Positions 28,730 to 61,418 of a stretch of DNA of 64,000 nucleotides are shown in pieces. Under the pieces are notes generated by a model. It searched no databases and was not told the DNA's origin. It worked only from the letters and a program-made list of their open reading frames with translations. Made by a program: the position numbers and the translations under genes. This stretch comes from Candidatus Melainabacteria bacterium. GTDB lineage: Bacteria; Cyanobacteriota; Vampirovibrionia; Obscuribacterales; Obscuribacteraceae. The stretch is taken from contig DAIDIP010000006.1 of assembly GCA_027451745.1 (NCBI GenBank), positions 1 through 64,000 on the forward strand. The letters are read 5' to 3'. Numbering within the stretch: position 1 is the first letter of the stretch; the number at the start of each line of letters is the position of its first letter.

Positions 28730-29785
28730 TTATTTTACTGAACAAGTTGGCTTAGGAGTTGTTTTAATCGGAGTGCTCTTGGCGCTCACAGCTTTTAGCC
28801 AGTTCTGGTTTTCTTGATACCACTTGATTGTTTCTCTAATACCGGTTTCAAAATTATATTTTGGTTTCCAACCAAGTTCGGAAGTGATTTTCCTTGGATC
28901 AATAGCATAACGACGATCGTGCCCAAGTCTATCTTCCACGTAATTAATCAGTGTTTCAGGCTTACCCAATTCTTTCAAAATCAACTTGGTAATATCAATG
29001 TTTTTTCTTTCATTATGTCCACCAATATTGTATACCTCACCAGCCTTTCCTCTTTGGTAGGCCAAATCAATTGCCTGACAATGATCTTCCACATGCAGCC
29101 AATCGCGCACATTAAGGCCATCACCGTATACAGGCACTGGTTTATCGTTTATGGCATTATTTATAAAAAGAGGAATAAGTTTTTCTGGATTTTGATAAGG
29201 ACCATAATTGTTCGAGCAACGGGTAATAATTACAGGAAGCGCAAATGTGTGAAAATAAGCGCGACACAATAAATCTGCACCAGCCTTACTTGCTGAATAA
29301 GGACTATTAGCAGCTAATGGCGTGTCTTCTGTAAAGTAACCTTCGGGTCCAAGCGAACCATATACTTCGTCAGTTGATACTTGCAAATAGCGGATTGAAT
29401 ACTTAGCTCCAGTGCCACTTTCGCTTCTGCCATAATTGAGAGCAGCATCAAGTAATACCTGCGTACCCATTACATTTGTATTCACAAAAACAAAAGGATC
29501 AGTTATTGAACGATCAACATGCGATTCCGCTGCTAAGTTGATGATTCCATCAATTTTTCCAAAACGCTTTCCGCTAACAATATCATCTACCAATTGCTTA
29601 TCGGTGATTGATCCTTGCACAAAAGTATAGTTGAGATTGTTTTCGACATCAGAAAGATTTTCTGGATGAGCAGCATATGTCATAGCATCAAGGTTGATAA
29701 TTTTGTACTCTGGATATTTCTTCAAGAAATAACGCACCAGATTACTTCCAATAAAACCTAGCCCCCCAGTAACTAATAGCTGCAT
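28730..29785 (-). CDS. rmlB: dTDP-glucose 4,6-dehydratase
   Basis: Converts dTDP-glucose to dTDP-4-keto-6-deoxyglucose with bound NAD. Motifs: VTGGLGFIGSNLVRYF, LAAESHVDRSI, STDEVYGSLG with catalytic Asp-Glu, and YSASKAGADLL (Tyr-x3-Lys). A longer frame runs to 29818, but GAAGAGG six bases before the ATG at 29785 and the MQLLVTGG start decide it. The last ~20 residues are Lys/Pro/Thr-rich. Middle gene of the rml operon. Confidence 0.96.
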   Translation of the reverse strand: MQLLVTGGLGFIGSNLVRYFLKKYPEYKIINLDAMTYAAHPENLSDVENNLNYTFVQGSITDKQLVDDIVSGKRFGKIDGIINLAAESHVDRSITDPFVFVNTNVMGTQVLLDAALNYGRSESGTGAKYSIRYLQVSTDEVYGSLGPEGYFTEDTPLAANSPYSASKAGADLLCRAYFHTFALPVIITRCSNNYGPYQNPEKLIPLFINNAINDKPVPVYGDGLNVRDWLHVEDHCQAIDLAYQRGKAGEVYNIGGHNERKNIDITKLILKELGKPETLINYVEDRLGHDRRYAIDPRKITSELGWKPKYNFETGIRETIKWYQENQNWLKAVSAKSTPIKTTPKPTCSVK

Positions 29786-29831
29786 TTTTACCTCTTCTGT
29801 TTGTGTTCTCGAATCCAAAAATTATAAGTCA

Positions 29832-36688: not shown

Positions 36689-37708
36689 TCAACCAATCAG
36701 GCAGCAATCAGTCTGGCAAAAATCCTGTTTTAGGGCTATTTCTGACTGCCCATCTCCAATTCTATATTGATCAATTTTCTCATCAACCAATTTTCGAATC
36801 ATAGAAATAAATTTAGGATGACTGCCTGCCGTTTTCGCTCTGTGGTAGCCAATGCCAAGCTGCTCGCATAATTGCTTAGCTTGCGTATCCAAATCAAATA
36901 GTATTTCCATATGATCAGATACAAATCCTATCGGCGCTATCACTATATCTCTGACACCTTCTTTTGCCAGTCCTTCTATAACATCGTTTATATCTGGTTC
37001 TAGCCATGGCTGAGTAGGGGGTCCACTTCGACTCTGATAAGCTATTTGCCACGCATTAGTTACATCTACTGTCTTAATGACTGACTTAGCTACTTCCTGT
37101 AGTTGTTGTGCATAAAAACAACCATTAGCCATAGATAAGGGAATACTGTGGGCCGTAAAGACTATTTTTGCCTTTGCTCTACGATCTTCAGATATAGAAG
37201 CCATGGCAGTCAGTAATTGACCAGCATTAGCCGCAATAAAATCAGGATGATTATAAAAAGGTCGTATTTTCTCAATCACTGGTGCCGCGTTTCCTGCTGC
37301 CAAGCAAGCTTGTTCAATATTTTCTAAATACTGCCTGCAACTAGAATATGAGCTATAACCAGTTGTTGCAAAAGCAATCACCCTCTTTATCCCATCAGCA
37401 GCCATTTGTTTAACTGTATCAGTTAAAAGAGGATACCAATTGCGATTCCCCCAATAAATAGGCAGCTTAGGTCCACTTGACTCTACAACAGGTTTTAGAG
37501 CAGCTATTAATTTACGATTTTCTTCATTTATAGGACTTACACCATTAAATAATTGATAGTGTTTGGAAACTGCTAGCATACGCTCACGAGGAACATTTTT
37601 ACCCCGCAAAACATTTTCTAAAAAGGGCATTACATCATCAATTCCCTCTGGCCCCCCAAAGGAAAGAAGTAAGAAAGCATCATATTTGGTACCAAGCTGC
37701 TTTTGCAT
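36689..37708 (-). CDS. hemH: Ferrochelatase (actinobacterial/coproporphyrin type)
   Basis: Inserts ferrous iron into a porphyrin in the last part of heme synthesis. The 339-residue protein resembles actinobacterial HemH/CpfC: LLLSFGGPEGIDDVMPFLENVLRG, the VSPINEENR segment, the catalytic His in FTAHSIP, and the glutamate site in VSDHMEILFDLD. The C-terminal CQTDCC may bind an iron-sulfur cluster as in some ferrochelatases. Heme supply fits the di-heme cytochromes and the globin sensor. It is divergent from the SGNH gene. Confidence 0.94.
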   Translation of the reverse strand: MQKQLGTKYDAFLLLSFGGPEGIDDVMPFLENVLRGKNVPRERMLAVSKHYQLFNGVSPINEENRKLIAALKPVVESSGPKLPIYWGNRNWYPLLTDTVKQMAADGIKRVIAFATTGYSSYSSCRQYLENIEQACLAAGNAAPVIEKIRPFYNHPDFIAANAGQLLTAMASISEDRRAKAKIVFTAHSIPLSMANGCFYAQQLQEVAKSVIKTVDVTNAWQIAYQSRSGPPTQPWLEPDINDVIEGLAKEGVRDIVIAPIGFVSDHMEILFDLDTQAKQLCEQLGIGYHRAKTAGSHPKFISMIRKLVDEKIDQYRIGDGQSEIALKQDFCQTDCCLIG

Positions 37709-37845: not shown

Positions 37846-38901
37846 ATGTTACCAAATATCGCCATAGCTGAAAAGCTTCCATATGCACGTGCTGAACACG
37901 TTTCAAGTAAAGTACGGTCGTCTTTTATTTTCGCACTTATAATTTTCCTCATTTTTCTCGTAATTACGCTTTCAATTCCGCCCCGCAGTGGCAGATTAGG
38001 ATATTTTGCTGCCTTAAAGGATAAACATCATCATCTAGAGACATTGAAATCTCCCAAAATTGTATTTATCGGCGGATCTAATTTAGCTTTTGGCTTGGAT
38101 AGCACTTTCATTGAAAATAAATTTCACATTCCTGTAGCGAATATGGGCATTTGCGCTCCCTTAGGGCTCAGATACATTCTTGAAGAAGTAAAAGATAATA
38201 TTAAGGCCGGTGACGTTGTGGTACTGGTGCCTGAATACGGGATCTTGCAAAATACTATAGACGGCACTCCAGATCTCATACATGCCGTTGAGGTCTATCC
38301 TCGTTCAGCGCTTTTTTTGATAAGAGCCTATACGCAATCGCCTCAAGCATTTTTCAATTTTCTAGCCATAATTCGCGAAATCCCTACAGCAAAATGGTCT
38401 GCTTTTTATACAATTTTGACCAATATGTGGCAAAAAGGACATTACGACCCAGACCTAATTGAGAACTGGGAAATAAAAAATCAATTAGGAAAAAACACAC
38501 GATTCTATTTCGATAAACATGGGGATTATTTTGGACACTTCGCTAAACCAAATATGTCTTTTGAGCCTGCCTGGGGACTAATTAAGGACATGGGAAAAGA
38601 GGCGGCCAATTTGATTAACGATTTTGATCAATTTGCGCGAAAACGAAATGTACAAGTAATCATAATACCACCACCGATACCACGTGAAGACATTTCACCA
38701 AGTCATTGTTCAACCATAAGTGTTGCCTCCTGGCCGGATCAAAAACTAACTGTTCCCATTCTGGGCAGTCCACAGCGATATGCGTTTGACGCTAATCTTT
38801 TTTATCAACCACCATATCATCTCAATGCCTCTGGGCGCTCCATTAGAACAAAGCTATTATCAGAAGATCTTGATAGATATTTTAGAAAAACACATAAATA
38901 A
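37846..38901 (+). CDS. Membrane-anchored SGNH-like (AlgJ/DltD-type) protein
   Basis: A 351-residue protein with one N-terminal transmembrane helix (about 25-45) and a periplasmic domain. It shows an SGNH-like block I (FIGGSNLAFGLDS with Ser), a Gly/Asn block (NMGICAPLG) and a block V-like His near the end (YHLNASG). This fits the family of AlgJ/DltD-like proteins that take part in O-acetylation of surface glycans. The start has no clear RBS. It overlaps nothing; a membrane glycosyltransferase-like gene follows on the same strand. Assignment to the family is by motif only. Confidence 0.7.
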   Translation: MLPNIAIAEKLPYARAEHVSSKVRSSFIFALIIFLIFLVITLSIPPRSGRLGYFAALKDKHHHLETLKSPKIVFIGGSNLAFGLDSTFIENKFHIPVANMGICAPLGLRYILEEVKDNIKAGDVVVLVPEYGILQNTIDGTPDLIHAVEVYPRSALFLIRAYTQSPQAFFNFLAIIREIPTAKWSAFYTILTNMWQKGHYDPDLIENWEIKNQLGKNTRFYFDKHGDYFGHFAKPNMSFEPAWGLIKDMGKEAANLINDFDQFARKRNVQVIIIPPPIPREDISPSHCSTISVASWPDQKLTVPILGSPQRYAFDANLFYQPPYHLNASGRSIRTKLLSEDLDRYFRKTHK

Positions 38902-38941
38902 AGCTATGACGTTGCAGAAGGATATCGTTATACTAAAATTT

Positions 38942-38950
38942 TGTTATACT
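38942..38950 (+). promoter_or_regulatory. Extended -10 promoter, with a repeated TATACT 16 bp upstream
   Basis: TGTTATACT at 38942-38950 is an extended -10 identical to 15947-15955. A second GTTATACT lies at 38927-38934. TTGCAG (38912-38917) with TAAAAT (38934-38939) is an alternative pair. It lies 25 bp before the membrane protein start at 38975 inside the 3' end zone of the SGNH gene region. Confidence 0.45.
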
Positions 38951-38974
38951 GAACTGGACTTCCGTAGGCCCAAT

Positions 38975-40678
38975 ATGAGTATTGCCAATCAAAATTATAT
39001 TGAAGCAAAATCTTTAACTATATCGAACAATAGTCATTCTCAAGCATACCTTAATCTCTACCTGCCATTTATTTGTTTATTCCTTATCGAGCTCATTACA
39101 TTTGGTATCCATGCTAAAGACGTTGGCGTCTATCAAGACGAGTGGATTTATTTAAGCAAGCTACACTTTGTCCCACAATCTTTAAGTGGCTTTATTTCGA
39201 CGTACTTTTGGGACCCTAGAATATTGGTTCGTCCGATTGAGGCACTCCATTTTGGACCTCTGTTTTATTTTGTGCATGAGAATCCTCTCTGGTATCACAT
39301 TATCTGTTATGTCTTTGAATTTTTTGGCGCTTGGTTTTTATTTTTAGCCGTTTCTAGACTGGTCAATGATCGCTCAACGGCTTTAACTGCTGCAATTCTA
39401 TTTCTATTATATCCAACTCACGACGTTACTCATTATGAAATAGTCGCTTCTTCACTTGCCATTAGTATGTCTTTCTTTACAGGTAGCCTATGGCTGTACT
39501 TAAAAGGTATAGACGAAAATCGTTATGGACTAATAGCCTGGTCCGCATTCGCTTATTTTTTAAGCCTTTACAATTACGAGCTTTGTCTGCCCTTAGCACC
39601 TTTGTATGCACTCATATACTTATCGAGACAAAATCCACTTACCAAAGTTCTTAGCAATGTAAAACAATTTATTGCTTATCAGATTCCACCATTCGGCGTT
39701 GCTTTCAGCATGATTTTATATCGACGCTTACTTTTCAATATGCAACTGGGTTATCGCTATGCTCTAGTCTACGATTTAGTCAATTTTTCCTCAGTCATTT
39801 GGTCTGGACTTATTGTCAGCCTCTCTCCCTATACAGTTACATTCAGCATCTCTATGCTGTTCGAAGCACTAAAATCGGGATTTTCGATATTTTCATTAAT
39901 ATGTTTATGTGCTATAGCAAGCTCAGTCTTTTTCACTCTAAAAGCACCAGCAACACTAAGCACATCCAAAAACAAAATGCTTTTATTGGTCACTCTTGGA
40001 TTAATAACGATAGTTCTTTCTTACACCATTTACGGACTAAGCCCAGAGCACAAACCAGTAATAGATGCCTGGCTAAATCGTGTCAATGTCGGCAGCTCTT
40101 TAGGGTCCTGTTTTGTAATTGCAGGACTGTTTGCTCTCTTTAAGGATCACTTTGAGCCTTTAAAGGGGGTCCTAAAATCATCATCAGCAAGACAAAGCCT
40201 ATACGCTTTGATAATCTCATTGTTAGCCGCAGCTCTGATAATTATCGATTGGCAATTTGCTAAACCTTGGATTGTCTCATGGCAGGCCCAGAAAGAATTA
40301 ATGAATGTCCTAAGAATAAAGTCAAACGAAATCAAGCCTGGTGATTCTATCATCCTCGGCGGCATCATCCGCTATGCCAGCAAATGGGTTCCAGTAGTTG
40401 ATGGTATCTGGGATTTTGGAGGTATTATATGCACAACCTTAAATGATCAATCAATTAAGGGCACTGTTGTTACTGATCGTTTGGTCATAGAAAAAGACCT
40501 ACTGGTTGATAAGTATGGCGATATAGTTTTAGGAACATTTCCTTTCAAACAAATGATTTTGTATGCTCCTAATAAAAATGTATGGAAACGCATATCATCG
40601 CGTCAAGAATTTATCAAAGAGGCTCGAAAGCTTGGTTGGAGCATTCCAGAAAGTAAATCTAGTTCACCGTCCAGCTAA
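38975..40678 (+). CDS. Multi-spanning membrane protein, glycosyltransferase-like
   Basis: About 567 residues with around ten or more transmembrane segments. The first external loop carries VYQDEWIYLSK, an acidic Asp-Glu pair typical of GT-C (GT39/GT83-like) enzymes that use lipid-linked sugars; this is the main clue. The frame is open back to 38780, overlapping the SGNH gene, but ATG 38975 with a TAGG site six bases upstream and an extended -10 promoter before it is preferred (an ATG at 38906 is the alternative). Its stop overlaps that of the convergent GT4 gene. Confidence 0.75.
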   Translation: MSIANQNYIEAKSLTISNNSHSQAYLNLYLPFICLFLIELITFGIHAKDVGVYQDEWIYLSKLHFVPQSLSGFISTYFWDPRILVRPIEALHFGPLFYFVHENPLWYHIICYVFEFFGAWFLFLAVSRLVNDRSTALTAAILFLLYPTHDVTHYEIVASSLAISMSFFTGSLWLYLKGIDENRYGLIAWSAFAYFLSLYNYELCLPLAPLYALIYLSRQNPLTKVLSNVKQFIAYQIPPFGVAFSMILYRRLLFNMQLGYRYALVYDLVNFSSVIWSGLIVSLSPYTVTFSISMLFEALKSGFSIFSLICLCAIASSVFFTLKAPATLSTSKNKMLLLVTLGLITIVLSYTIYGLSPEHKPVIDAWLNRVNVGSSLGSCFVIAGLFALFKDHFEPLKGVLKSSSARQSLYALIISLLAAALIIIDWQFAKPWIVSWQAQKELMNVLRIKSNEIKPGDSIILGGIIRYASKWVPVVDGIWDFGGIICTTLNDQSIKGTVVTDRLVIEKDLLVDKYGDIVLGTFPFKQMILYAPNKNVWKRISSRQEFIKEARKLGWSIPESKSSSPSS

Positions 40679-44070: not shown

Positions 44071-45084
44071 CTACCTACGTACTGTAGTTTTAGCTAATTC
44101 ACCAGTATAGCTCAAAAATTCTCGATACCAATCAATAGTCTCAGCCAACCCTTCTTCCAAAGAAAATTGTGGCTTCCACTTGAGTAATTTTGTCGCTTTA
44201 GTGGAGTCCAAATATTGCGAATGAATTTCGCCACATGCTTTATCTTCAATCACTGGTTTCAAGTGTTGTGCGGACATTTTTTCTTGAATCAATTTCACCA
44301 ATTCAAGCACGCTCACAGGACGTTCGGGGCTAAAATTGAAAGCCTCACCTAAACACCTTCCTTCATACACAGCTTGCGCCAAGCTCAAATAAGCTTGTAC
44401 TGTGTCTTTTACATAAATGTAATCTCTTACAAAAGTTCCGTCACTACGGATTTGCGGGCGCTCGCCCAACAACAATGATCTAATAGTACCTGGAATTATG
44501 CGACTAAAGTTCAAATCGCCGCCCCCATAAATATTGCCACAACGAGCTACAGCTACAGGTGTTGAATAGCTTTTATAATAGCTTTGGCAAATTAAATCAC
44601 CGCAACTTTTCGAGACTTCGTAAGGCTGTTCGCCTGCTAATGGCATATCTTCAAAATAAGGCAAATTTGGAGCAGCACCATAAGCTTTATCGCTAGAGGC
44701 AAAAACAACCGCTTTGACATAATCGCGATGTATGCGTGCTGCTTCCAAAACATGATAGGTGCCACGAATATTAGATTCAAAAGTAAGCAATGGTGAACGT
44801 CTGGCCGTAGATACAATAGCTTGTGCTGCTAAGTGAATAATAGAACTACATTCACTTTGACTAATGGCTCGTTCCACTGTCTCATACGATTCCAATCCAC
44901 CACGAATAATTTGTACTTGTTTGTATTGTCCGCTTAAAACAAGTTCGGATTGTGGACTGAGATCACGTGTTAAAGCAGTCACTTTAGCGCCATTAGCCAA
45001 AAGCTCTTTAGTAAGCCAGCTACCAACCAAACCAGTTGCACCGGTCACTAATACTCTTTGTCCTTGCCAAAATGAATTTTGCAT
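44071..45084 (-). CDS. rfbG: CDP-glucose 4,6-dehydratase
   Basis: SDR enzyme forming CDP-4-keto-6-deoxyglucose from CDP-glucose. Rossmann motif VTGATGLVGSWL, the SSDKAYG triad (Lys in place of the usual Glu of the dTDP enzyme, seen in CDP dehydratases) and the Tyr-x3-Lys in YEVSKSCGDL. A longer frame begins at 45108 (TTG), but ATG 45084 fits the protein start. Divergent from rfbF, whose product is its substrate, and coupled to the C-methyltransferase downstream. Confidence 0.9.
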   Translation of the reverse strand: MQNSFWQGQRVLVTGATGLVGSWLTKELLANGAKVTALTRDLSPQSELVLSGQYKQVQIIRGGLESYETVERAISQSECSSIIHLAAQAIVSTARRSPLLTFESNIRGTYHVLEAARIHRDYVKAVVFASSDKAYGAAPNLPYFEDMPLAGEQPYEVSKSCGDLICQSYYKSYSTPVAVARCGNIYGGGDLNFSRIIPGTIRSLLLGERPQIRSDGTFVRDYIYVKDTVQAYLSLAQAVYEGRCLGEAFNFSPERPVSVLELVKLIQEKMSAQHLKPVIEDKACGEIHSQYLDSTKATKLLKWKPQFSLEEGLAETIDWYREFLSYTGELAKTTVRR

Positions 45085-45258
45085 TACTTTCTTACAGCGC
45101 CTCTTCAATATTAATGAGGACTAATCCACACATCAATAAAAACCGTTCAGTATCTCCGTTTACTTAGACTAAAATTTGCATCTTACGCTAAGATCTGCCA
45201 ATACAATGCGTTACCTCAAACAAGATTATCCCTCACCCCTGCATAAATTAGGAGAGCA

Positions 45259-46128
45259 ATGAATATCAAAGCAGTCATATTAGCAGGTGGATTTGGTTCA
45301 CGCATCAGTGAAGAAACTCATTTGAAGCCAAAACCTATGATCGAAATCGGCGGTAAGCCAATTTTGTGGCACATTATGAAAATTTATTCTCATTGGGGTA
45401 TTAACGACTTTGTTATTTGCTGTGGCTATAAAGGCTATGTAGTCAAGGAGTACTTTTCCAATTATTTCCTCCATACATCTGACGTTACATTTGACATGGT
45501 TAAGCAAACTACTGAAATCCATGAAAATGTATCCGAACCTTGGCGGGTTACTCTTGTAGACACTGGCGAAAGTACTAATACTGGCGGCCGACTTCGTCGC
45601 ATAGCGCGTTATCTCAAGAACGAGCGCTTTTGCCTCACTTATGGGGACGGGCTGGCTGATATAAATATCCCTAAACTTATAGCTTTTCATGAAAAGCAAA
45701 AATCAATGCTCACACTGACTGTCGCTCAGCCACCTGGTCGTTATGGCTCTGTCTCATTAAATGACAATGGTCATGTAGAAGAATTTATCGAAAAGCCTCA
45801 AGGCGATGGCGGCTGGGTTAACGCCGGCTTTATGGTAGTGGAACCCGGCTTTATAAATAAATATACTTCTAGCGATCAATCTTCTCTAGAAAATGAAGGA
45901 TTACATTCTGCAGCTGCTGCTAAAGAATTGTGTGCATTCAAACACCAAGGTTTCTGGCATGCCATGGACACTCTTAGAGATCATAATCATCTCAGCAGTT
46001 TATGGTCCAATGGAACAGCTCCTTGGAAATTATGGGACGATAATAATCAACGGTCACTTCCGCAGAACGCTTCAGAATCGCCTAAATCACTTACAAATCA
46101 ATCACTTTTAAAAACTACGTCGCGCTAA
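45259..46128 (+). CDS. rfbF: Glucose-1-phosphate cytidylyltransferase
   Basis: Makes CDP-glucose from glucose-1-phosphate and CTP, the entry to CDP-6-deoxysugars. A 289-residue nucleotidyltransferase: ILAGGFGSRISEETHLKPKPMIEIGG, LTYGDGLADIN and the C-terminal GFWHAMDTLRDHNHL are diagnostic of RfbF. RBS GGAG is strong. The last ~25 residues are a Ser/Asn-rich tail absent from most homologues. Divergent promoter region with rfbG; no rfbH (dehydrase) is present, so this is not the classical CDP-3,6-dideoxyhexose route. Confidence 0.95.
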   Translation: MNIKAVILAGGFGSRISEETHLKPKPMIEIGGKPILWHIMKIYSHWGINDFVICCGYKGYVVKEYFSNYFLHTSDVTFDMVKQTTEIHENVSEPWRVTLVDTGESTNTGGRLRRIARYLKNERFCLTYGDGLADINIPKLIAFHEKQKSMLTLTVAQPPGRYGSVSLNDNGHVEEFIEKPQGDGGWVNAGFMVVEPGFINKYTSSDQSSLENEGLHSAAAAKELCAFKHQGFWHAMDTLRDHNHLSSLWSNGTAPWKLWDDNNQRSLPQNASESPKSLTNQSLLKTTSR

Positions 46129-53123: not shown

Positions 53124-53257
53124 ACATCAAATCAACATCATTCTATGCGACCATATGCTGTCATAGGAAAAATCAAATTACAAGATGGACTATTTAAGAG
53201 ACGTCCGTCCATTATTTGCAGTTAATATCGCTTGCAGCGATGATAGAATTATTACTT

Positions 53258-54925
53258 ATGTCAAACCCTGTACTCGCACAAAATAGCCCGTCTTCGCAAG
53301 AAGAAATAAAGAGATCTACCAGCAAAAGAGGCTTTGTTTTTTTTGCTTTGGCTTTACTCGCAGTAAATATTTCAATGATTATATGGTCGCTCTTTGATCA
53401 TTCCTTACCGGTATATGACATGGCGTGCCATATCCTTAGCGGCTTTGCTTGCTGCGATTTGTTACAACATATTCACTTGAGAAGTATGGACTGGTGGCAA
53501 CAATTATTAGCAGTGAATCCTCTCTACCCACCCTTTGTTTATTTTATTTATGGGACTTTCAAATTACTTTTAGGTCCTCAGCATTGGGTCGATAGCCTAG
53601 TACGCTTAACTTTTGCCAATATTCTTTTTTTCAGCGTATATGGACTGGGCAAAATTCTATTTAAAGACAAAAATATTGCCCTAATGTCAAGTTTGCTTGT
53701 TTTCTGCGCTCCCATCGTTTTCAATTTAACTCATTACGACATGCTAGACATTCCAGGACTAGCCATGGTTTCGCTAGCTATATTTTGTTTAGCCTGGTGG
53801 CAAGAGCAGCCATCTATTTTGTCAAGTTTATCCTTAGGTGTTGGCTGTGCTCTTGCTGCTTTAACCAAAAACAATTGCATAGCATTCTTAGTAGCACCAC
53901 TTTTGATATCACTAATACAGGCTGCCTATACAAAGAACTGGCTAAAAATTAGGCTTTTAGTACTAGCTGGTGCGACTGCATTTATAACTATGCTTCCTTG
54001 GCTAACAATTGCTGCTCCCACAATGTTTAAGATGGTTGGTTCCTATCAGCAAAAGAAATACAATTACGATTTAATCTCTAGTGCCAATTACTACATATTT
54101 GGCTTGCCTGCTTTAGTGTCTTATTTTTTGTTTGCAATGTTTTTAATAGTGTTATGTACAGCTCCTACAGAGATACATAAGCGACTCTTTCTCGTTATGT
54201 CATCAATACTGGGAGGACTTTCTGTTTTAATCCTTTTTCCTTGGAATGAACAAATAAGATACGCTTTGCCAGCCGCAATTCCAATCGCCCTATATACAGC
54301 TTGGGGCTTCAAACATTATTGGACCCTACTCAAAACTCGTGGTCTGATTGTGATAGCCGCTCTAACCCTTGCCTTTGCTTTTATAGAAAATAATTTCACC
54401 CCATATCCTCTGCCCAGAATTCAAATACCTTGGCAAATTGCCGGCTTTATCGGTATTGAACCAGCCAGAAAAGATGAGCATCACGGCGCTGGTGGCACAT
54501 CAATGTATCCAACTCCGCCAGCTGATTGGGGCTACAGTTGGGTTATCGATACTATAAAGCCTCATTTGGGATCCACCAAACAGCAATTCTGTATAATGCC
54601 TGATTGCGAAGAAGTGAGCTCCACAATTTATTCTTATTTAGTCCGCTGCAACAATCTCAATCTTCATGCATTCACTCCTCGTAATTGGACAATGATTGGT
54701 GATGATGTGAGTTTTAATCAAAAGACAGCCCTATTTGTTCATTGGTATTTATTGAAGACCGGCAGTAATGTTTCTCCTGCTTCTCACTTTTCCGGCAAAG
54801 CAAGTGAGGAGGCATATATTCAGTGGTGTAATTTTGTCAGAAATTCCGGACACTTTAAACTAATTGGCACGAAACTTCTGCCAGATAACACTCAGTTGGA
54901 ATTGTATAAAAATTCGTCCTACTAA
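53258..54925 (+). CDS. GT39-like membrane glycosyltransferase, paralogue A
   Basis: About 555 residues with an N-terminal helix, a large first periplasmic loop holding DHSLPVYDMACH, then LLAVNPLYPPFVYFI and about nine more transmembrane helices; C-terminal soluble domain. The Asp-His and NPLYPP features fit GT-C/ArnT-like enzymes that transfer sugars from polyprenyl phosphate. The longest frame starts with TTG at 53216, but alignment with paralogue B at 61427 (both MSN...) supports ATG 53258. The paralogues match closely across the first loop. Confidence 0.82.
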   Translation: MSNPVLAQNSPSSQEEIKRSTSKRGFVFFALALLAVNISMIIWSLFDHSLPVYDMACHILSGFACCDLLQHIHLRSMDWWQQLLAVNPLYPPFVYFIYGTFKLLLGPQHWVDSLVRLTFANILFFSVYGLGKILFKDKNIALMSSLLVFCAPIVFNLTHYDMLDIPGLAMVSLAIFCLAWWQEQPSILSSLSLGVGCALAALTKNNCIAFLVAPLLISLIQAAYTKNWLKIRLLVLAGATAFITMLPWLTIAAPTMFKMVGSYQQKKYNYDLISSANYYIFGLPALVSYFLFAMFLIVLCTAPTEIHKRLFLVMSSILGGLSVLILFPWNEQIRYALPAAIPIALYTAWGFKHYWTLLKTRGLIVIAALTLAFAFIENNFTPYPLPRIQIPWQIAGFIGIEPARKDEHHGAGGTSMYPTPPADWGYSWVIDTIKPHLGSTKQQFCIMPDCEEVSSTIYSYLVRCNNLNLHAFTPRNWTMIGDDVSFNQKTALFVHWYLLKTGSNVSPASHFSGKASEEAYIQWCNFVRNSGHFKLIGTKLLPDNTQLELYKNSSY

Positions 54926-54927
54926 AG

Positions 54928-55872
54928 TTAGCTTTTTTGGACAGCAGTACTCGCTTTATCTCGATACCATTGTGCTGTTTTTGCCAAACCATCTTTAAAC
55001 GAATAAATAGGCTTCCAATCTAGCTCACGACAAATTTTTTCGTTATTAGCTACCCAAACAGATGTATCCCATTTGCGATTTGGCATTGAACCCCATTGAG
55101 GCTCTTCTTTAATCGAAAACAATTCTCGTGCAGCTGCAACAACTTCACGCAAAGTTGTTTGTTTACCTGTACCTAAATTATAAACAGCCCCAGGTTTGAT
55201 TTCTTGCGTAGCTGCTGCAATAAATGCTGAAACAGTATCGTCTATATAAATGAAATCACGAGCAATAGTTGGATCCACAAGAGGCGGCAATTTGCCTTGC
55301 AAACCATGTTCAATAATTGTCGGAATTAGCCTACCTTTATCTTCGTATGGACCATAAACTGAATATAGGCGCAGAACTACGGTAGGCAATTCCCGCTTTT
55401 GTGCATATAGCCGACAAAAATGTGTTGCAGCTGCCTTAGCAATGGCATATTCACTATTTGGCTCTACCCATTCATCTTCTTTTGGAGCATGATCTTTATA
55501 ACCATATTCTGAAGATGATCCAGCACTTACAAATGCTTCGCAACCAGTCTTCGCACATGCATGCAGTAAATTAGCCGTACCTAAAACATTCGTTGAGAGT
55601 ATGCGCTCAAGATCATTTTGCCAAGAATATGCACCATGCGCTGCAAGATGAAAAACCCAATCAGCTTTTATTTTTTCCAAAGAAGAAGTCAATACCTCTT
55701 TATCTGTCAAAGGTATTTTATGCATGATTAGGTCATTTTTAATATCATCTATTCGCCACAAATCACTTTCTGGACGACAAATAATATGCACCTGATGACC
55801 ACTGGTTAATAAGTGTCTAACTAAATTAGCACCTACAAAACCAGCAGCCCCGGTAACTAGAGCACGCTTCAT
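54928..55872 (-). CDS. NAD-dependent epimerase/dehydratase
   Basis: SDR-family sugar nucleotide enzyme of 314 residues. Rossmann motif VTGAAGFVGANLVRHL, active site SAGSSSEYG and the Tyr-x3-Lys in EYAIAKAAATHF. It may be a 4-epimerase or a 4-ketoreductase finishing one of the unusual sugars; substrate cannot be set from sequence. It shares an ATGA overlap with the sulfotransferase gene. Last gene of a six-gene minus-strand operon from 60518. Confidence 0.88.
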   Translation of the reverse strand: MKRALVTGAAGFVGANLVRHLLTSGHQVHIICRPESDLWRIDDIKNDLIMHKIPLTDKEVLTSSLEKIKADWVFHLAAHGAYSWQNDLERILSTNVLGTANLLHACAKTGCEAFVSAGSSSEYGYKDHAPKEDEWVEPNSEYAIAKAAATHFCRLYAQKRELPTVVLRLYSVYGPYEDKGRLIPTIIEHGLQGKLPPLVDPTIARDFIYIDDTVSAFIAAATQEIKPGAVYNLGTGKQTTLREVVAAARELFSIKEEPQWGSMPNRKWDTSVWVANNEKICRELDWKPIYSFKDGLAKTAQWYRDKASTAVQKS

Positions 55873-56813
55873 ACACGCACTGGTGATTTACTTAGAATAT
55901 TCTCGTAATTGAATACTTTCAAATACTGATTGGTCAGCAATTGAATTTCCAGTTGCTCGTCAGCAGACAATTCGTTAGCAGTAGCAATATTGGCTTTTGT
56001 GCTAGCTTCACGAATCGTTCCCCAAGGGTAAACTTCTTTCAAAGGTTCACCATTCCAGCTTGGCTGACTAAGAGAATCAGTTACTTCTAAGCCTAGCTTT
56101 TTGCATAGCTCGCCCAAAGTTTTCTTAGGATCTGCCATTACATCTTCAGTGCGGATAATATGAAAACGATCTGGATATTTTTCTTTGAACATTAAGGCGT
56201 AGTACTGGTTCATTGTCCAGCCTAACATGTAATGCTGCAAAGAAAGAGGTACAGGACGTTTCTTTGTGTCAGCATATGCAGACCAAGGATTGCGGACAAT
56301 ATGCAAGAAATGAGCTTCTGGCATATCATCAAGTATTTTATTAGCATCAACAGTAATGATTGGGCTATAGCCAACATACATTACTTCTTTGCCTGTACGC
56401 TTATAGTCTTTCCAAGCTTCAAAAGTAGCTTTGAAAAATGCGGCCATATTATTGGCGCGACTGCGTCCGGTCTTCTTTACATGTGCAACATATTTGGCCA
56501 TGCGATCATCGTCTGAAAAGTCAAAAGGCATATGACGGAATTTGCTCACATTAGGGGTGCGGGCTCTTACTTTGCCTTCTTCATCGATAATAGCTTTATA
56601 ATCCTGCTCAGGTGTAGCTTCTAAAGCAAACGTTGGCCAGCGATATTTCAATGGATACATTGAGCTCAAATAATCATTGACATATTTGGTTCCTGGCTGA
56701 GATTCAAACGGATAAACAAAAAGTTGTGGGTGCCCATCCAAAAAGCGGTGCGATGTATTACCGCCGTTTTCATACATTGCCCCAATCATTAACAAGCGAA
56801 AATTTTCAGTCAT
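55869..56813 (-). CDS. Sulfotransferase-family protein
   Basis: A 314-residue PAPS-dependent sulfotransferase-like protein. The 5' phosphosulfate-binding region is near the N-terminus (MIGAMYENGGNTSHRFLDGHPQL), variant from the usual GxPRSGTT; the 3'-phosphate motif IVRNPWSAYADT is good. No membrane segment. AGGAG six bases before the ATG supports the start. It probably sulfates the surface glycan, but with the altered 5' loop activity is not certain. A PAPS synthesis pathway is not in this window. Confidence 0.8.
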   Translation of the reverse strand: MTENFRLLMIGAMYENGGNTSHRFLDGHPQLFVYPFESQPGTKYVNDYLSSMYPLKYRWPTFALEATPEQDYKAIIDEEGKVRARTPNVSKFRHMPFDFSDDDRMAKYVAHVKKTGRSRANNMAAFFKATFEAWKDYKRTGKEVMYVGYSPIITVDANKILDDMPEAHFLHIVRNPWSAYADTKKRPVPLSLQHYMLGWTMNQYYALMFKEKYPDRFHIIRTEDVMADPKKTLGELCKKLGLEVTDSLSQPSWNGEPLKEVYPWGTIREASTKANIATANELSADEQLEIQLLTNQYLKVFNYENILSKSPVRV

Positions 56814-56846: not shown

Positions 56847-58076
56847 TTACTGGGCGCCATTTCTTTTTGGTTGGCCTATAGAGAAACTATAGAAGAGATT
56901 TTGTTTTTGGCCCTTTGAATGGCTTGATTTGTAAACAAAAGGAAAACCAGTAGTGATTTTTTGCGAAATTGCTTCTATGGCAAAAATCTGATTACCTGAG
57001 GGCCAAATCAGGCTACCCACTAATTTACCAGTTTTCATATCAATAGCATGAATTCCACACTGGCTTTTATTTACATCTAATCCAGGCGCATATTGGCTGA
57101 AGCGAGGAATAACTCTTGATGTACCAACAAAAGCTAAAGAAGAGCTAAAGCACAGACCTCTTGTCCAGCCTGACAGCTTCAAAACTGGCTCAAATAGCCC
57201 ATCTTCGGCATAGCCAAATTCTCCATACCCACTATTGTCAACCCATACTTTGTTTTTATAGAGTCGAGCTGAATGAGGACGAGTTAATCCACTGGCATAA
57301 ACTTCTCTACTTTTGCCTGAAAAAATTACACCGCGCTTATCCACAGGAAAATTTTTATGCCCCGGACGGCGCTTGGAAATCTCATCACAGGAGGCAGAAA
57401 AATAAGATTCTTTAATGTTGTCACCAGCGGCTATTGAATTAAGTTGAATATGATTTTGGCCAAATACGGGTCCGTCCTCTGTCTCTATACACTTTGGCCA
57501 CCAGACTCGCTCATAACCAAATTGTGAATCTAGTCTTACCACAGCATTTTGCCCCACAGCATTTGCATGTAATTGTCCACCAATCATGGCCAAATCATGA
57601 ATGTATAAACAACCTGGATAGAATCGCGATCGTACTGGAATTAATGGCTTTCCAATCAATCTAGCTTCATCTCTATCGAGCCTGTCTATGAGTCTATTTA
57701 CTACAGCCAGATCATATATTTGATTAGGGTTGCGCGTACTGGCAATATATACCAATTCTTTTTTGGCATCAAATGCAATACCAGATGGATGTGGCATACT
57801 CAAATAAGTTACTTGTGGCCGTCCATCAATTACGGTTAAAGCCAACAGCATATGTTCGTATTCACGACCGACAAGCAAAGTTATACCTTGCAATGCCTCC
57901 CAAAACTTACCCGTCACTCTAAATTGAAGTAACGATAAATCTATTTCGGCCGCTTGTCTCCATTGACTAGTAACCTGCTCAGGTTCTCGCCATTCTCCAT
58001 GGTGATGCGCCCAAAGCGTCTGTAAGTCTGAACTTCCCTTTTTTAAGCGGGATTTGTTTTTTTGAATTGTCGCCAA
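56847..58076 (-). CDS. DUF4915/TIGR03032-family protein
   Basis: A 409-residue protein of the TIGR03032/DUF4915 type, predicted beta-propeller, often seen in glycan and secreted-polymer clusters. Recognised by HANAVGQNAVVRLD, VWWPKCIE, the SYFSASCDEISKRRPGH region, VDKRGVIFSG and the HSARLYKNKVWVDNSGYGEFG segment. No signal peptide. Start is TTG at 58076 with AGGAG ten bases upstream; it lies within the GT2 gene end (34-bp overlap). Function unknown. Confidence 0.78.
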   Translation of the reverse strand: MATIQKNKSRLKKGSSDLQTLWAHHHGEWREPEQVTSQWRQAAEIDLSLLQFRVTGKFWEALQGITLLVGREYEHMLLALTVIDGRPQVTYLSMPHPSGIAFDAKKELVYIASTRNPNQIYDLAVVNRLIDRLDRDEARLIGKPLIPVRSRFYPGCLYIHDLAMIGGQLHANAVGQNAVVRLDSQFGYERVWWPKCIETEDGPVFGQNHIQLNSIAAGDNIKESYFSASCDEISKRRPGHKNFPVDKRGVIFSGKSREVYASGLTRPHSARLYKNKVWVDNSGYGEFGYAEDGLFEPVLKLSGWTRGLCFSSSLAFVGTSRVIPRFSQYAPGLDVNKSQCGIHAIDMKTGKLVGSLIWPSGNQIFAIEAISQKITTGFPFVYKSSHSKGQKQNLFYSFSIGQPKRNGAQ

Positions 58077-58735
58077 AGAAACAGTGCTCCTAAGTACATT
58101 TTTATAGCAGAACCATAATTAGTAGTAGATTTGCCCCCATGTCGACGCGTTGAAAGAAGGGGGACTTCTAAAATTGGATAATCATATTGTCTACACACAG
58201 CTACAAATTCAGCATCAATCAAATCATCTTCGCGAGAAAGTTTGAGTAAAGGCGCAAATTTGGCTGGGAATACTTTTGGAGTACCGTTAATATCCCAGAC
58301 CGGTGAATCAAACAGCATTCGACACTCAAGATTGTAAAGTAAAGAACCAAGTCTTCTTCTAAAGCTGTCTCTTATTTTTCTATTTGCTTTTACTACAACA
58401 TTAGGATAAATAAGTCCATAACCCAATACTGTTTTTAATTGCTCAGGGCTTGTTCTAGCAGAATTTGTATAGCAAATCAAATCACCGCTTGCTTGCTGCA
58501 AGCCAAGTTTGACCGCATAACCCCATCCCCCTCTTTTTGTATCAACCACTTTTATATGTGGATCTTTACGCGCTAATTCCTGGCACACACTAACTGAATT
58601 ATCTGTGCATGCATTGCAAACAAGTACGAATTCATAATCTTGTGCTACACCAGAAAATTCATTTATATAGCCTTGAATTATCGCGCCAATGTGATCAGAC
58701 TGATTATGGACAGGCAAAATGATTGAAACTAACAC
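58043..58735 (-). CDS. Glycosyltransferase family 2 (dolichol-phosphate mannosyl-type)
   Basis: Short GT-A transferase of 230 residues: LVSIILPVHNQSDHIGAIIQGYI, CNACTDNSVSVC, a KVVDTKRGGWGYAVKLGL donor segment, and TRRHGGKSTTNYGSAIKMYLGALFLWRQ near the end. It resembles DPM1-like transferases that load a polyprenyl phosphate, which would feed the GT39-like membrane enzymes of this locus. GTG start; overlaps the transketolase C gene by seven bases. Confidence 0.85.
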   Translation of the reverse strand: MLVSIILPVHNQSDHIGAIIQGYINEFSGVAQDYEFVLVCNACTDNSVSVCQELARKDPHIKVVDTKRGGWGYAVKLGLQQASGDLICYTNSARTSPEQLKTVLGYGLIYPNVVVKANRKIRDSFRRRLGSLLYNLECRMLFDSPVWDINGTPKVFPAKFAPLLKLSREDDLIDAEFVAVCRQYDYPILEVPLLSTRRHGGKSTTNYGSAIKMYLGALFLWRQFKKTNPA

Positions 58736-59658
58736 GTAACCCCCGACAATTTCATTACATCACTAACTTTTTGAGCAATTGCCTGAGGTGAAAGACCATA
58801 TCGTCCATAAAGAAAATCATGATCACCTGTAACTGAATCCGGTGGGCGAGTGAGCCCTATTCTTGTTAGTTTAGCCTTCACAGCATTGTCGGCCATACAT
58901 TCACTAACAAGTGAACCTAAGCCTCCTTGTATGTAGTGGGCTTCTACAGTAAAAATATTGGAATAATTAGAAAGCAACGACACTATATTTGGCGCCGGAT
59001 TAATGCTAGCTATTACAGCGTGAGCACAAGACAGACCAGCTTCTTTCAGTTGAGCAGCAGCCAAAGCTGTTTCATTGCTTACAGCGCCCATACTCAATAA
59101 TAGGCAGTCTTTACCTTCGCGAATCAACTGAGCTTCGCCCTCGATAAAACTCCCTTCTAGTCCAGGAACAATTGTTCTGTCATCCTTTCCTAAGCGATAG
59201 TAAATGGGTCCTTTAGCATCGAAAGTGGCTTGTAATATGCTTCTAGTTTGATTAGCATCAGCTGGTGCATAAACCGAAAGACCCAGCTGTGTACGCATCA
59301 CGCCAATATCTTCTACACCAAAGTGAGTCAATCCATTGTGACTATATTCCATTCCTCCACCAACTCCTGCTATACGCACAGGCAATTGATGAGCAATCGG
59401 TCCATTTCTAATAAACTCATATGGCCTTAAACTTGCAAAAGTGACTATCGAATAAACAAACGGTATAAAGCCTGCTTCAGCCAAGCCTGTTGCAACGCCA
59501 ACCATATTTTGTTCAGCCACACCTACATTGACATATCGATCGGGAAATTGGTCCCGAAATGGCTCTAGAGCACTGTATCCCAAATCAGCAGTTAATAAAA
59601 CAATCCGGGGATCTTTATGTGCTAGTTCAACCAAAGTTTTTATAAAAGTAAGTCTCAT
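58729..59658 (-). CDS. Transketolase, C-terminal subunit (split type)
   Basis: 309 residues covering the pyrimidine-binding and C-terminal domains of transketolase: GVAEQNMVGVATGLAEAGFIPFVYSIVTF with the glutamate of the cofactor site, then SHNGLTHFGVEDIGVMR and a C-terminal AHYIQGGLGSLV. It forms the second half with the N-terminal subunit; start and stop overlap by one base (TAATG), so equal amounts are expected. Presence in a glycan operon suggests a role in making an unusual sugar rather than central metabolism. Confidence 0.93.
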   Translation of the reverse strand: MRLTFIKTLVELAHKDPRIVLLTADLGYSALEPFRDQFPDRYVNVGVAEQNMVGVATGLAEAGFIPFVYSIVTFASLRPYEFIRNGPIAHQLPVRIAGVGGGMEYSHNGLTHFGVEDIGVMRTQLGLSVYAPADANQTRSILQATFDAKGPIYYRLGKDDRTIVPGLEGSFIEGEAQLIREGKDCLLLSMGAVSNETALAAAQLKEAGLSCAHAVIASINPAPNIVSLLSNYSNIFTVEAHYIQGGLGSLVSECMADNAVKAKLTRIGLTRPPDSVTGDHDFLYGRYGLSPQAIAQKVSDVMKLSGVTC

Positions 59659-60518
59659 TAGCCTTTATTCACATCATTGAGTGCTTGGGACAATTCGGCT
59701 TCAGACAAAGGGCTATAGTGCCACTTGATTTGTCCTTCCATGAAAGAAACGCCTTTGCCAAAAACAGTATGCGCAAGAATAACATGAGGGCGTCCATTGA
59801 CAAAGTTTAGTTCATTTACAGTAGTAACTATTTGCTCTAAATTATGTCCATCTACTTCATGCACATCCCAGCCAAAACTCTGCCATATTTCTCTAAGACG
59901 CGGCAGGTTAATAACATCTTTCGTATAACCAAAAGCCTGTTGCTTATTTAAATCCAAAATGGCACATAAATTTGCTAATTTATGATGAGCAGCAAACATT
60001 GCTGCCTCCCAAGTAGACCCCTCATTACATTCTGCATCACTCAACAGAGCAAAAACACGTCGCTTCGACTTTTGCCATTTGGCAGCTAGGGCAGCCCCAG
60101 TAGCAAAAGATAGCCCTTGTCCTAAAGAACCAGTACCAAAGTCTACTCCCGGTGTGTGCGGCTCAGGATGCACACCGAATGTAGTATCGTTCCCACAAAA
60201 CGTTGAAAGCTGCTCAGCACTAATCCAGCCCTTGAAATATAGAGCAACGTAAAGTCCAAGGGCCGCATGTCCCTTAGAAAGAACAAATCTATCACGATCT
60301 GGATTATTAGGTTGATCCGCTTCAAGTATGTATCCGTACAGTGCTTCTAATATCTCGACAACACATAGTGCAGAGCCTATATGCCCGACATGAGCACGAA
60401 ATGACTCTTTCAGTATTGCTTCGCGCATAGCGCGCGCTGACCCAAACCAAGCTTGATTAGAGGCAAGAATACTGCCACTTGGATACACTATTTGGGGACT
60501 TCCTTTTTTTTGCACCAT
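59658..60518 (-). CDS. Transketolase, N-terminal subunit (split type)
   Basis: 286 residues with the thiamine-diphosphate-binding domain: GHIGSALCVVEILEALYG, SKGHAALGLYVALYF, GTGSLGQGLSFATGAALAAK, and the cofactor motif SDAECNEGSTWEAAMFAAHHKLANLCAILDLN (GDG-type motif read as SDAE...N). First gene of the minus-strand operon. Together with the C subunit it could transfer a two-carbon ketol unit; its donor and acceptor are unknown. Confidence 0.93.
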   Translation of the reverse strand: MVQKKGSPQIVYPSGSILASNQAWFGSARAMREAILKESFRAHVGHIGSALCVVEILEALYGYILEADQPNNPDRDRFVLSKGHAALGLYVALYFKGWISAEQLSTFCGNDTTFGVHPEPHTPGVDFGTGSLGQGLSFATGAALAAKWQKSKRRVFALLSDAECNEGSTWEAAMFAAHHKLANLCAILDLNKQQAFGYTKDVINLPRLREIWQSFGWDVHEVDGHNLEQIVTTVNELNFVNGRPHVILAHTVFGKGVSFMEGQIKWHYSPLSEAELSQALNDVNKG

Positions 60519-60725: not shown

Positions 60726-61418
60726 GTGAATAAGCAACCAATGATTTTCTGGGGCGCTAAAGGCCAAGCAAAAATGCTCCACGAGTGCATGCTTAATACT
60801 GAATTTCAATTAGTAGCTCTTTTTGATTCAAAAAAAGATATAACATCACCTTTTACTAATATTCCTATATTTCACAATCAAAATGAGTTTTTGGAGTGGA
60901 TCAAACAAAACTTCAAAAATCAGACCGTGTCTTGCTTAGTTGCTATTGGGAACGGTGGTGAAGAACGGTTGCGCATACAAGAGCTTCTAAAAAAAGAAGG
61001 GCTTAAACCCATTATCGCCCAACACCGTACCGCTTTCGTAGCTGACAATGTAACTATTGGTGAGGGATCTCAAATTTTGCCGATGGCTTGCGTAAATACA
61101 GAAGCATCTATAGGACGAGCCACCATTATCAATAGCGGCGCCATAATAGAACACGAAACAAAAGTAGGCAATGGTGTACATGTAGCGCCAGGAGCCCGAT
61201 TAGCCGGATGCATAGTTGTAGAAGACTTTGCCACTATTTACACTGGCGCTGTCATAGGCCCGAGGATAAAAATAGGCCAAGGCTCAGTAGTTGGTGCTGG
61301 GGCTGTAGTACTCAAAGATGTACCGGCCTATTCACTAGTAGCAGGAATCCCTGCAAAAATAATTAAGAATCTCAAAAATACACAATCTTCAAATCACTCC
61401 ATAGCTACGAGCAAATAA
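60726..61418 (+). CDS. NeuD-family sugar O/N-acyltransferase
   Basis: A 230-residue left-handed beta-helix acyltransferase of the PglD/NeuD type. An N-terminal Rossmann-like domain (MIFWGAKGQAKMLHECM) is followed from about residue 100 by hexapeptide repeats (IGEGSQILPMACVNTEASIG, IGQGSVVGAGAVVLKD) and the end motif VAGIPAKIIKN. It transfers acetyl or another acyl from CoA to an amino sugar or sialic-acid-like sugar. Starts with GTG at 60726. Divergent from the transketolase operon; followed by GT39 paralogue B. Confidence 0.9.
   Translation: MNKQPMIFWGAKGQAKMLHECMLNTEFQLVALFDSKKDITSPFTNIPIFHNQNEFLEWIKQNFKNQTVSCLVAIGNGGEERLRIQELLKKEGLKPIIAQHRTAFVADNVTIGEGSQILPMACVNTEASIGRATIINSGAIIEHETKVGNGVHVAPGARLAGCIVVEDFATIYTGAVIGPRIKIGQGSVVGAGAVVLKDVPAYSLVAGIPAKIIKNLKNTQSSNHSIATSK

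Follow-up and report, generated by a model that had tools for sequence, protein, structure and literature searches.

The 64,000-nucleotide stretch of contig DAIDIP010000006.1 from a Candidatus Melainabacteria bacterium (assembly GCA_027451745.1; hereafter the window) carries on its minus strand a six-gene operon that begins with a split transketolase. The first gene, TKT-N (59658..60518), encodes the thiamine diphosphate (ThDP)-binding subunit (286 aa; PF00456, E 1.7e-41), and the second, TKT-C (58729..59658), encodes the pyrimidine-binding and C-terminal subunit (309 aa; PF02779, 5.4e-27, and PF02780, 3.6e-13). The remaining minus-strand genes encode a GT2-like protein (58043..58735; 230 aa; PF00535, E 1.7e-12), a DUF4915/TIGR03032 protein predicted to form a beta-propeller (56847..58076; 409 aa; PF16261, E 3.1e-53), a sulfotransferase-fold protein (55869..56813; 314 aa; PF13469 (Sulfotransfer_3), E 1.8e-12) and an extended short-chain dehydrogenase/reductase (SDR) of the NAD-dependent epimerase/dehydratase family (54928..55872; 314 aa; PF01370, E 7.8e-53). 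The TKT-N and TKT-C genes share one base at a TAATG junction, and the successive spacings along the operon are -1, -7, -34, +33 and -4 bases. The open reading frames (ORFs) and Pfam domains agree with the original prediction of a one-base-overlapping transketolase pair heading an operon with GT2, DUF4915, sulfotransferase-family and epimerase genes. The operon ends at 54928, and because both neighbouring genes (60726-61418 and 53216-54925) are encoded on the opposite, plus strand, the transcription unit probably consists of just these six genes. As judged from sequence, the pair is a non-housekeeping split transketolase in a conserved cassette, with its catalytic residues kept and its acceptor pocket altered.

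The transketolase domains are divided such that Transketolase_N occupies one chain and Transket_pyr and Transketolase_C the adjacent one. The split transketolase of Carboxydothermus hydrogenoformans (6yaj/6yak), which was assayed with aldehydes according to excerpts of its report (PMC7661550), has the same two-chain division. Its N component, 6yak, is the best solved relative of TKT-N (201.8 bits), and 6yaj is that of TKT-C (169 bits). TKT-N and TKT-C share 77% and 76% identity with the copies in G001, a genome from the same genus, and this identity, together with the occurrence of the same gene order in other phyla, argues that the pair is not a chance arrangement. The genome (2,995,819 bases in 76 contigs, 96.48% complete) also encodes a full-length transketolase (L001; C6:108686-109507; 629-aa ORF) on the same contig as the cassette, ~ 48 kb away. 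This copy contains all three transketolase domains and shares 35% identity with TKT-N across the aligned region; weaker transketolase-like matches occur elsewhere in the genome (C2:99022 and C7:37053). The pair is therefore not the genome's sole transketolase, so that the outcome which would have refuted the original prediction did not occur, and a housekeeping identity for the pair was rejected.

The original prediction had pointed to split transketolase/dehydrogenase-like pairs that attach two-carbon branches to sugars in some antibiotic pathways. In Pfam the pair scores as a transketolase, TKT-N matching Transketolase_N with 142.8 bits. The E1_dh score of 21.7 bits falls just under the cut-off of 22, and a pyruvate-dehydrogenase-like acetyl transferase was rejected. 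Decarboxylases of the YerE type carry pyruvate-decarboxylase/acetolactate-synthase domains on one chain, and none of these domain families was matched by either subunit (Pfam, E up to 0.001). The pair is a genuine split transketolase, dedicated and distinct from the metabolic enzyme, and belongs to a glycan-linked subclass.

Acceptor pocket and glycan neighbourhood of the split transketolases

The loci compared included 80 of the 150 confirmed loci from a scan of genome contigs and nine plasmid regions hand-picked among the 40 matches listed of 830 records. A TKT-N match was present at 108 loci, a TKT-C match at 99 and a close pair at 98. Addition of the window's pair and removal of L025, which duplicates L107, and of L122, which duplicates L001, yielded an alignment set of 97. 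Residues were mapped via alignments with the human and Carboxydothermus transketolases and the genome's own full-length copy. The correspondence of human, E. coli and yeast residue numbers is assumed here, as are the roles of individual active-site residues except those covered by PMC5073344 and PMC7661550.

The catalytic Glu is conserved in 97/97 aligned sequences and the four counted N-subunit His positions in nearly all; the window's pair possesses the catalytic and ThDP/donor-site residues E49, H46, H84, H117 and H267. The positions equivalent to His461 and Asp469 of E. coli transketolase, which line the acceptor site, divide the set. Both His and Asp are present in 57 sequences, neither in 35, and five are mixed or gapped. 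TKT-C of the window contains Gly100 and Asn108 at these positions, whereas the full-length copy has both His and Asp; the Carboxydothermus enzyme likewise keeps its acceptor His and Asp and differs in this from the window's pair with its glycan cassette. Gly occupies the first position in 33 of the 97 sequences, including all 15 members of the cassette clade defined below, in which the second residue is Asn, Ala, Gly or His. At the position of E. coli S385, which contacts phosphate, Ser is found in 56 of the 57 enzymes of the His/Asp type and in 13 of the 35 that have neither residue. According to excerpts of PMC5073344, the substitutions D469T, S385Y and R520Q shifted E. coli transketolase away from phosphorylated acceptors and towards bulky aldehydes without a phosphate. 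One locus, L111 (L111:8729-10489), has a natural Tyr at the aligned S385 site, the same change as in the evolved S385Y enzyme. Three Streptomyces pairs (L126, L127 and L133) and a Phaeobacter pair (L131) retain the His and have the Asp replaced by Tyr or Leu, which by alignment is a third pocket type. Two of the three Streptomyces pairs adjoin LysW genes, the L126 record being without annotation; the LysW-adjoining pairs are presumably members of vazabitide-type pathways.

The pocket types also differ in their genomic surroundings. At least one glycan-type gene lies within 8 kb in 30 of the 32 Gly-type loci other than the window, and at least two in 24 of the 32; among His/Asp-type loci the corresponding count for at least one gene is 1/56 (L088). 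The queries were window proteins and included the cassette's own GT2 and SDR, so that cassette loci score by construction. With the 14 loci of the cassette clade removed, 16 of the 18 Gly-type loci are near glycan genes, the exceptions being L033 and L089. Genes of the rfbF, rfbG or rfbH type are present at 7/34 loci lacking the His/Asp pair, as compared with 0/56 His/Asp loci. On the Methylovirgula plasmid pHY1 (L132:3749-9724), the record's annotation reads rfbF-rfbG-SDR-rfbH-TKT-N-TKT-C in consecutive order. These supply genes are the ones expected for CDP-4-keto-3,6-dideoxyglucose and are followed by the split transketolase. The plasmid operon is the clearest candidate for a branched CDP-sugar built by a transketolase, and it should lend itself more readily to testing than the cassette of the window. 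Among the glycan proteins of the window, the pHY1 SDR best matches the cassette SDR (32% identity, 145 bits, as against 73 for the next). Further Gly-type split pairs occur in the window's family at L113 (genome G021) and L114 (G011), where they adjoin a zinc alcohol-dehydrogenase-like gene; in G021 this pair is additional to the one in the cassette.

Cassette distribution and the partner proteins

All six genes occur together in 10 distinct loci including the window. Four are in other genomes of the window's family (L105, L106, L107 (= L025) and L109), and the others are L027, Mesorhizobium L028 and L029, the metagenome-assembled genome (MAG) of an Acetobacteraceae member (L030) and a WPS-2 MAG (L031), the last with the genes in permuted order. 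The complete set is thus found in the window's family, in alphaproteobacteria and in WPS-2. Three loci (L108, L110 and L139) contain five cassette genes with no adjacent SDR; the SDR is located elsewhere in the genomes of L110 (G014) and L139 (G062) and was not found in that of L108 (G013). Genome G061 has two partial copies, one of them without DUF4915 and the other cut by a contig end (L137 and L138). TKT-N, TKT-C and SDR occur without the other three genes in L032, L111 and L026, the contig of L026 ending there. Conversely, six genomes of genus g23 have the GT2, DUF4915 and sulfotransferase-fold triad with no transketolase beside it (L134-L136 and L140-L142, L140 having a contig end close by). 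Two modules can thus be told apart within the set, TKT-N/TKT-C/SDR on the one hand and GT2/DUF4915/sulfotransferase-fold on the other.

The window's order was represented by 53 genomes, of which 15 contain the sulfotransferase-fold gene, 14 TKT-N and 14 the SDR, with thresholds of >400 bits for cassette-type TKT-N and >400 bits for the SDR (a weaker SDR, 298 bits, occurs in G005). The three pairwise overlaps are 13, 13 and 13 genomes, and 12 genomes hold all three genes; Fisher tests of the overlaps, with kinship ignored, give 1.7e-9, 2.3e-10 and 1.7e-9. At these thresholds each of the three genes is held by the same 7 of 25 genera. The association holds even where the genes are unlinked, as in genus g23. 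The exceptions are G065 and G067, with the sulfotransferase-fold gene and no cassette-type TKT-N, G069, with the reverse, and G013 and G067, in which the SDR is missing; all four genomes are 82-90% complete. A tree of 59 rows was computed after removal of three acceptor columns, with 20 of the 57 His/Asp-type sequences included and L073 left out. It was a quick search with support from the Shimodaira-Hasegawa-like approximate likelihood ratio test (SH-aLRT) only, no bootstrap, and several rows are of unusual composition. The 15 rows of the cassette and TKT+SDR types fall into a single clade (SH-aLRT 99.9), within which six-gene and TKT+SDR rows are intermixed. Going by record titles, members of this clade come from the window's Melainabacteria family and from Pseudomonadota, WPS-2, Chloroflexota and Fibrobacterota. 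A grouping of the 33 Gly rows was likewise recovered (SH-aLRT 97).

The SDR contains the motifs SxEYG and YAxxK, both invariant in a 13-member alignment, and is a candidate ketoreductase or sugar-nucleotide oxidoreductase. Its best profile match is the UDP-glucose 4-epimerase 4zrm, with the GDP-6-deoxy-4-hexulose reductase 2pk3 seventh, a ranking that does not decide its role; it may reduce the branch or may instead be the source of the ketone. A strict SDR motif scan (11/35, 0/56 and 0/5) missed TSSEYG forms and counted another SDR in L108, and it was given no weight.

GT2 glycosyltransferases use a DXD motif for metal and nucleotide binding. At its place the GT2-like protein has TNSART or SNAART in 12/12 aligned members, N-x-A-R-T being invariant. 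The sulfotransferase-fold protein is the most conserved member of the cassette (62 to 93% identity) and matches Sulfotransfer_3 with 48.4 bits against a cut-off of 27. Sulfotransferases that use 3'-phosphoadenosine 5'-phosphosulfate (PAPS) bind the 5'-phosphosulfate with a PRSGTT-like loop containing Arg or Lys and the 3'-phosphate with an Arg/Ser segment. The 3'-phosphate segment, VRNP(W/F)SAY, is kept in 12/12 members of the cassette family. The 5'-phosphosulfate loop is replaced by an invariant GAMYENGGNT (12/12) that contains neither Arg nor Lys. The predicted model (pLDDT 78.6) has tyrosylprotein sulfotransferases, led by TPST2, as its closest folds, with query TM-scores of 0.40-0.55 among the top ten. 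The protein has no match in the plasmid collection and no significant sequence relative in the PDB (best E 0.011).

A search for adenosine 5'-phosphosulfate (APS) kinase gave no match in the window's genome. The same holds in total for eight of the 15 genomes of the order with the sulfotransferase-fold gene, the window's included, and five of these eight are 93-96% complete; the kinase is present in the other 7/15 and in 7/7 genomes of other lineages searched. It was found in only 20 of the order's 53 genomes, and sulfotransferase annotations in this order therefore need care. Use of PAPS by the sulfotransferase-fold protein is therefore doubtful, though conceivable. The loss of the DXD and of the loop Arg/Lys in all 12 members weakens the earlier labels of GT2 and sulfotransferase, so that neither a sulfated glycan nor ordinary NDP-sugar transfer should be assumed. 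The DUF4915 protein matches TIGR03032 with 114.8 bits, below the cut-off of 251.5. A fold search with its model (mean pLDDT 82.0) returned many generic propellers and no enzyme assignment. No significant sequence relative was present in the PDB (best E 0.33), the plasmid collection held distant relatives only (12 records, at most 80% of the query covered), and no mention of DUF4915 or TIGR03032 was found in the open-access literature searched.

Proposed two-carbon branching and its alternatives

The best-supported single mechanism, argued from residues and neighbourhoods, is that the pair transfers a hydroxyacetyl group to a nucleotide-bound keto sugar to yield a two-carbon-branched surface sugar, with a probability of about 45%. 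An ordinary donor, for example a ketose phosphate, would give up a C2 ketol (hydroxyacetyl) unit to TKT-N and TKT-C, which would join it to a keto sugar held as its nucleotide derivative. The cassette SDR would then most likely reduce the branch or ring ketone, and the GT2-like, DUF4915 and sulfotransferase-fold proteins would act on or transfer the product. We infer the donor, the acceptor, the branching and the order of these steps. A two-carbon-branched or unusual ketose in the surface glycan had been raised as a possibility in the original prediction; the two-carbon branch gains indirect support from the loss of acceptor-pocket residues in the glycan-linked subgroup and from the relatives in rfbF-rfbG-rfbH operons, and loses in that those relatives lie outside the cassette clade.

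Hydroxyacetyl branching by split transketolases is already known as an idea. It has been proposed for miharamycin and amipurimycin in section 9 of a review (PMC12247030), where 13 putative sequences are counted, all from Streptomycetes and none characterized in vitro. Those enzymes belong to Streptomyces secondary metabolism, and they were compared with the window's pair by description rather than by sequence. In yersiniose A synthesis, the ThDP enzyme YerE attaches two carbons as a branch on an O-antigen CDP-keto-deoxysugar, followed by ketoreduction (excerpts of PMC12247030 and PMC4753412), and in paulomycin synthesis branching is likewise followed by ketoreduction, there by an aldo-keto reductase (PMC4753412, in part). 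The likeness to the YerE route extends to some relatives outside the cassette clade that have rfbF-G-H supply genes. However, YerE is an enzyme of the decarboxylase group with pyruvate as its donor, whereas the window's pair is a transketolase, so that a hydroxyacetyl branch is expected.

An AptA/AptB-named pair (apulose-4-phosphate transketolase; L125) is also a split transketolase, with an N subunit 42% identical to the window's, but its AptB-named protein has the acceptor His and Asp, neither of which is present in the window's pair. The Apt name is the record's own, and the neighbours carry ligase, methylase and aminotransferase names. The two-protein systems AviB1/AviB2 and Pau11/Pau12 are of the alpha-keto-acid dehydrogenase type. 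The window's pair differs from them in scoring as a transketolase on PF00456, with E1_dh below its cut-off. In antibiotic pathways these systems are proposed to form C-4 branched octoses from pyruvate (PMC4753412, in part). Among the open-access papers listed, no title indicated a split transketolase in an O-antigen setting, and no description of the cassette was found there.

Possible sources of a keto sugar lie in the window outside the cassette. From ~ 28 kb on, where selected genes were scanned, the surroundings form a locus of the O-antigen type. It encodes Wzm/Wzt-like transporters and glycosyltransferases, a C-methyltransferase and a glucose-1-phosphate cytidylyltransferase, and contains rml genes and one for a CDP-glucose dehydratase-like SDR. 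The cytidylyltransferase RfbF (45259..46128, plus strand; TIGR02623, 410.8 bits, above cut-off) could provide a CDP-sugar. A 4-keto sugar could come from the CDP-glucose 4,6-dehydratase-like SDR (44071..45108, minus strand; TIGR02622, 226.4 bits, missing the cut-off of 278.45) or from the dTDP-glucose 4,6-dehydratase RmlB (28730..29818, minus strand; TIGR01181, 471.3 bits, above cut-off). Between 42805 and 46128, a C-methyltransferase (Methyltransf_13/14), the dehydratase-like SDR and RfbF stand side by side, which suggests a methyl-branched CDP-sugar at the same locus. A ferrochelatase-family gene (36689-37708; PF00762, E 9.8e-87) adjoins the Wzm/Wzt genes within the glycan locus, and its counterpart in G001 (65% identical, L105:16929-17951) is situated between Wzm and a large cassette-adjacent glycosyltransferase. 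The overlapping ORFs at 37846-38901 (351 aa) and 38780-40678 (632 aa) gave no match in a Pfam search.

Several observations weigh against hydroxyacetyl transfer to a nucleotide-bound keto sugar. Section 9 of the review (PMC12247030) reports no in vitro ketone acceptance for the transketolases it names. The six cassette genes include no dedicated dehydratase, and all seven loci with rfbF, rfbG or rfbH fall outside the cassette clade. Among the 15 genomes that hold this clade, RfbF exceeds 200 bits in seven (G000, G014, G016, G021, G023, G044 and G045) and its curated cut-off in four; the other eight gave no true RfbF (>200 bits), so that CDP-glucose is not a general acceptor source, and a general CDP-glucose-derived acceptor for the six-gene cassette was rejected. 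RmlB is present in 13 of the 15, but also in 41 of the order's 53 genomes, and its presence is therefore uninformative. In the pair itself, Ser29 and both Arg are kept; they are compatible with a phosphorylated acceptor and speak against a complete loss of phosphate binding. L129 and L130 lack both acceptor residues, have Ser or Asn where the Gly-type pairs have Gly, and lie beside sugar kinases and ABC importers, so that the loss of His and Asp alone is no proof of a glycan role. Finally, TKT-C also matches the 1-deoxyxylulose 5-phosphate (DXP) synthase model with 130.5 bits, compared with 165.5 for the best transketolase model.

The usual acceptors of transketolases are aldehydes, and the pair might use an aldehyde outside the standard sugar phosphates (an aldose that is unphosphorylated or bears an amino or carboxyl group), giving a linear chain-extended ketose with no branch point. 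The retained Ser29 and Arg residues would suit such an acceptor, and the Streptomyces pairs with a kept His and an Asp replaced by Tyr or Leu fit a recruitment to odd substrates. Nonetheless, the loss of both residues in the window's pair exceeds the change in the Streptomyces pairs, and the rfbF-rfbG-rfbH operons of relatives outside the cassette clade make keto sugars; a linear product is considered unlikely. The absence of polymerase, flippase and nucleotidyltransferase genes (Pfam) among the six raises the question of whether the product is a polysaccharide component at all. A small glycoside or other non-polysaccharide metabolite formed from a non-sugar acceptor, with the glycan neighbourhood partly coincidental, would also accord with the DXD-less GT2, the atypical sulfotransferase-fold protein and the peptide-type (nonribosomal peptide synthetase, LysW) genes that adjoin two of the Streptomyces pairs. 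This is quite improbable given the Wzm/Wzt-type exporter genes near the cassette in L105, L108 and L139 and the large O-antigen-type locus of the window itself.

An accessory metabolic transketolase that feeds pentose or heptulose phosphates into glycan synthesis would explain the ordinary transketolase domains and catalytic residues. It is very improbable: a full-length enzyme is already encoded in the genome, the acceptor His and Asp of that copy and of the His/Asp-type relatives are gone from the pair, and the pair has a patchy distribution, in which it goes together with the SDR and the sulfotransferase-fold gene. Hydroxyacetyl branching of a keto sugar nucleotide could be one case of a broader cross-phylum C2-branching route, in which a split-transketolase subclass acting on keto sugar nucleotides is combined with the SDR and with a three-gene module that has its own new chemistry. 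The module consists of a DXD-less GT2, a DUF4915 propeller and a sulfotransferase-fold protein that perhaps does not use PAPS. Taken as a whole, this route is a speculative proposal that is somewhat unlikely to hold.

What is new here is the class-wide pocket signature, the cassette that recurs across phyla and the doubtful labels of the partner proteins; the enzyme family itself was known. Ketone acceptance by a transketolase has been proposed for two nucleoside antibiotics, with candidates all from Streptomycetes (PMC12247030, in part). The subgroup described here, one third of the alignment (33/97), has a common non-metabolic pocket signature and lies mostly near glycan genes, which makes ketone acceptance directly testable. 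The cassette places DUF4915 and an atypical sulfotransferase-fold family in a context, and the subgroup could explain branched sugars in bacterial envelopes that have no YerE.

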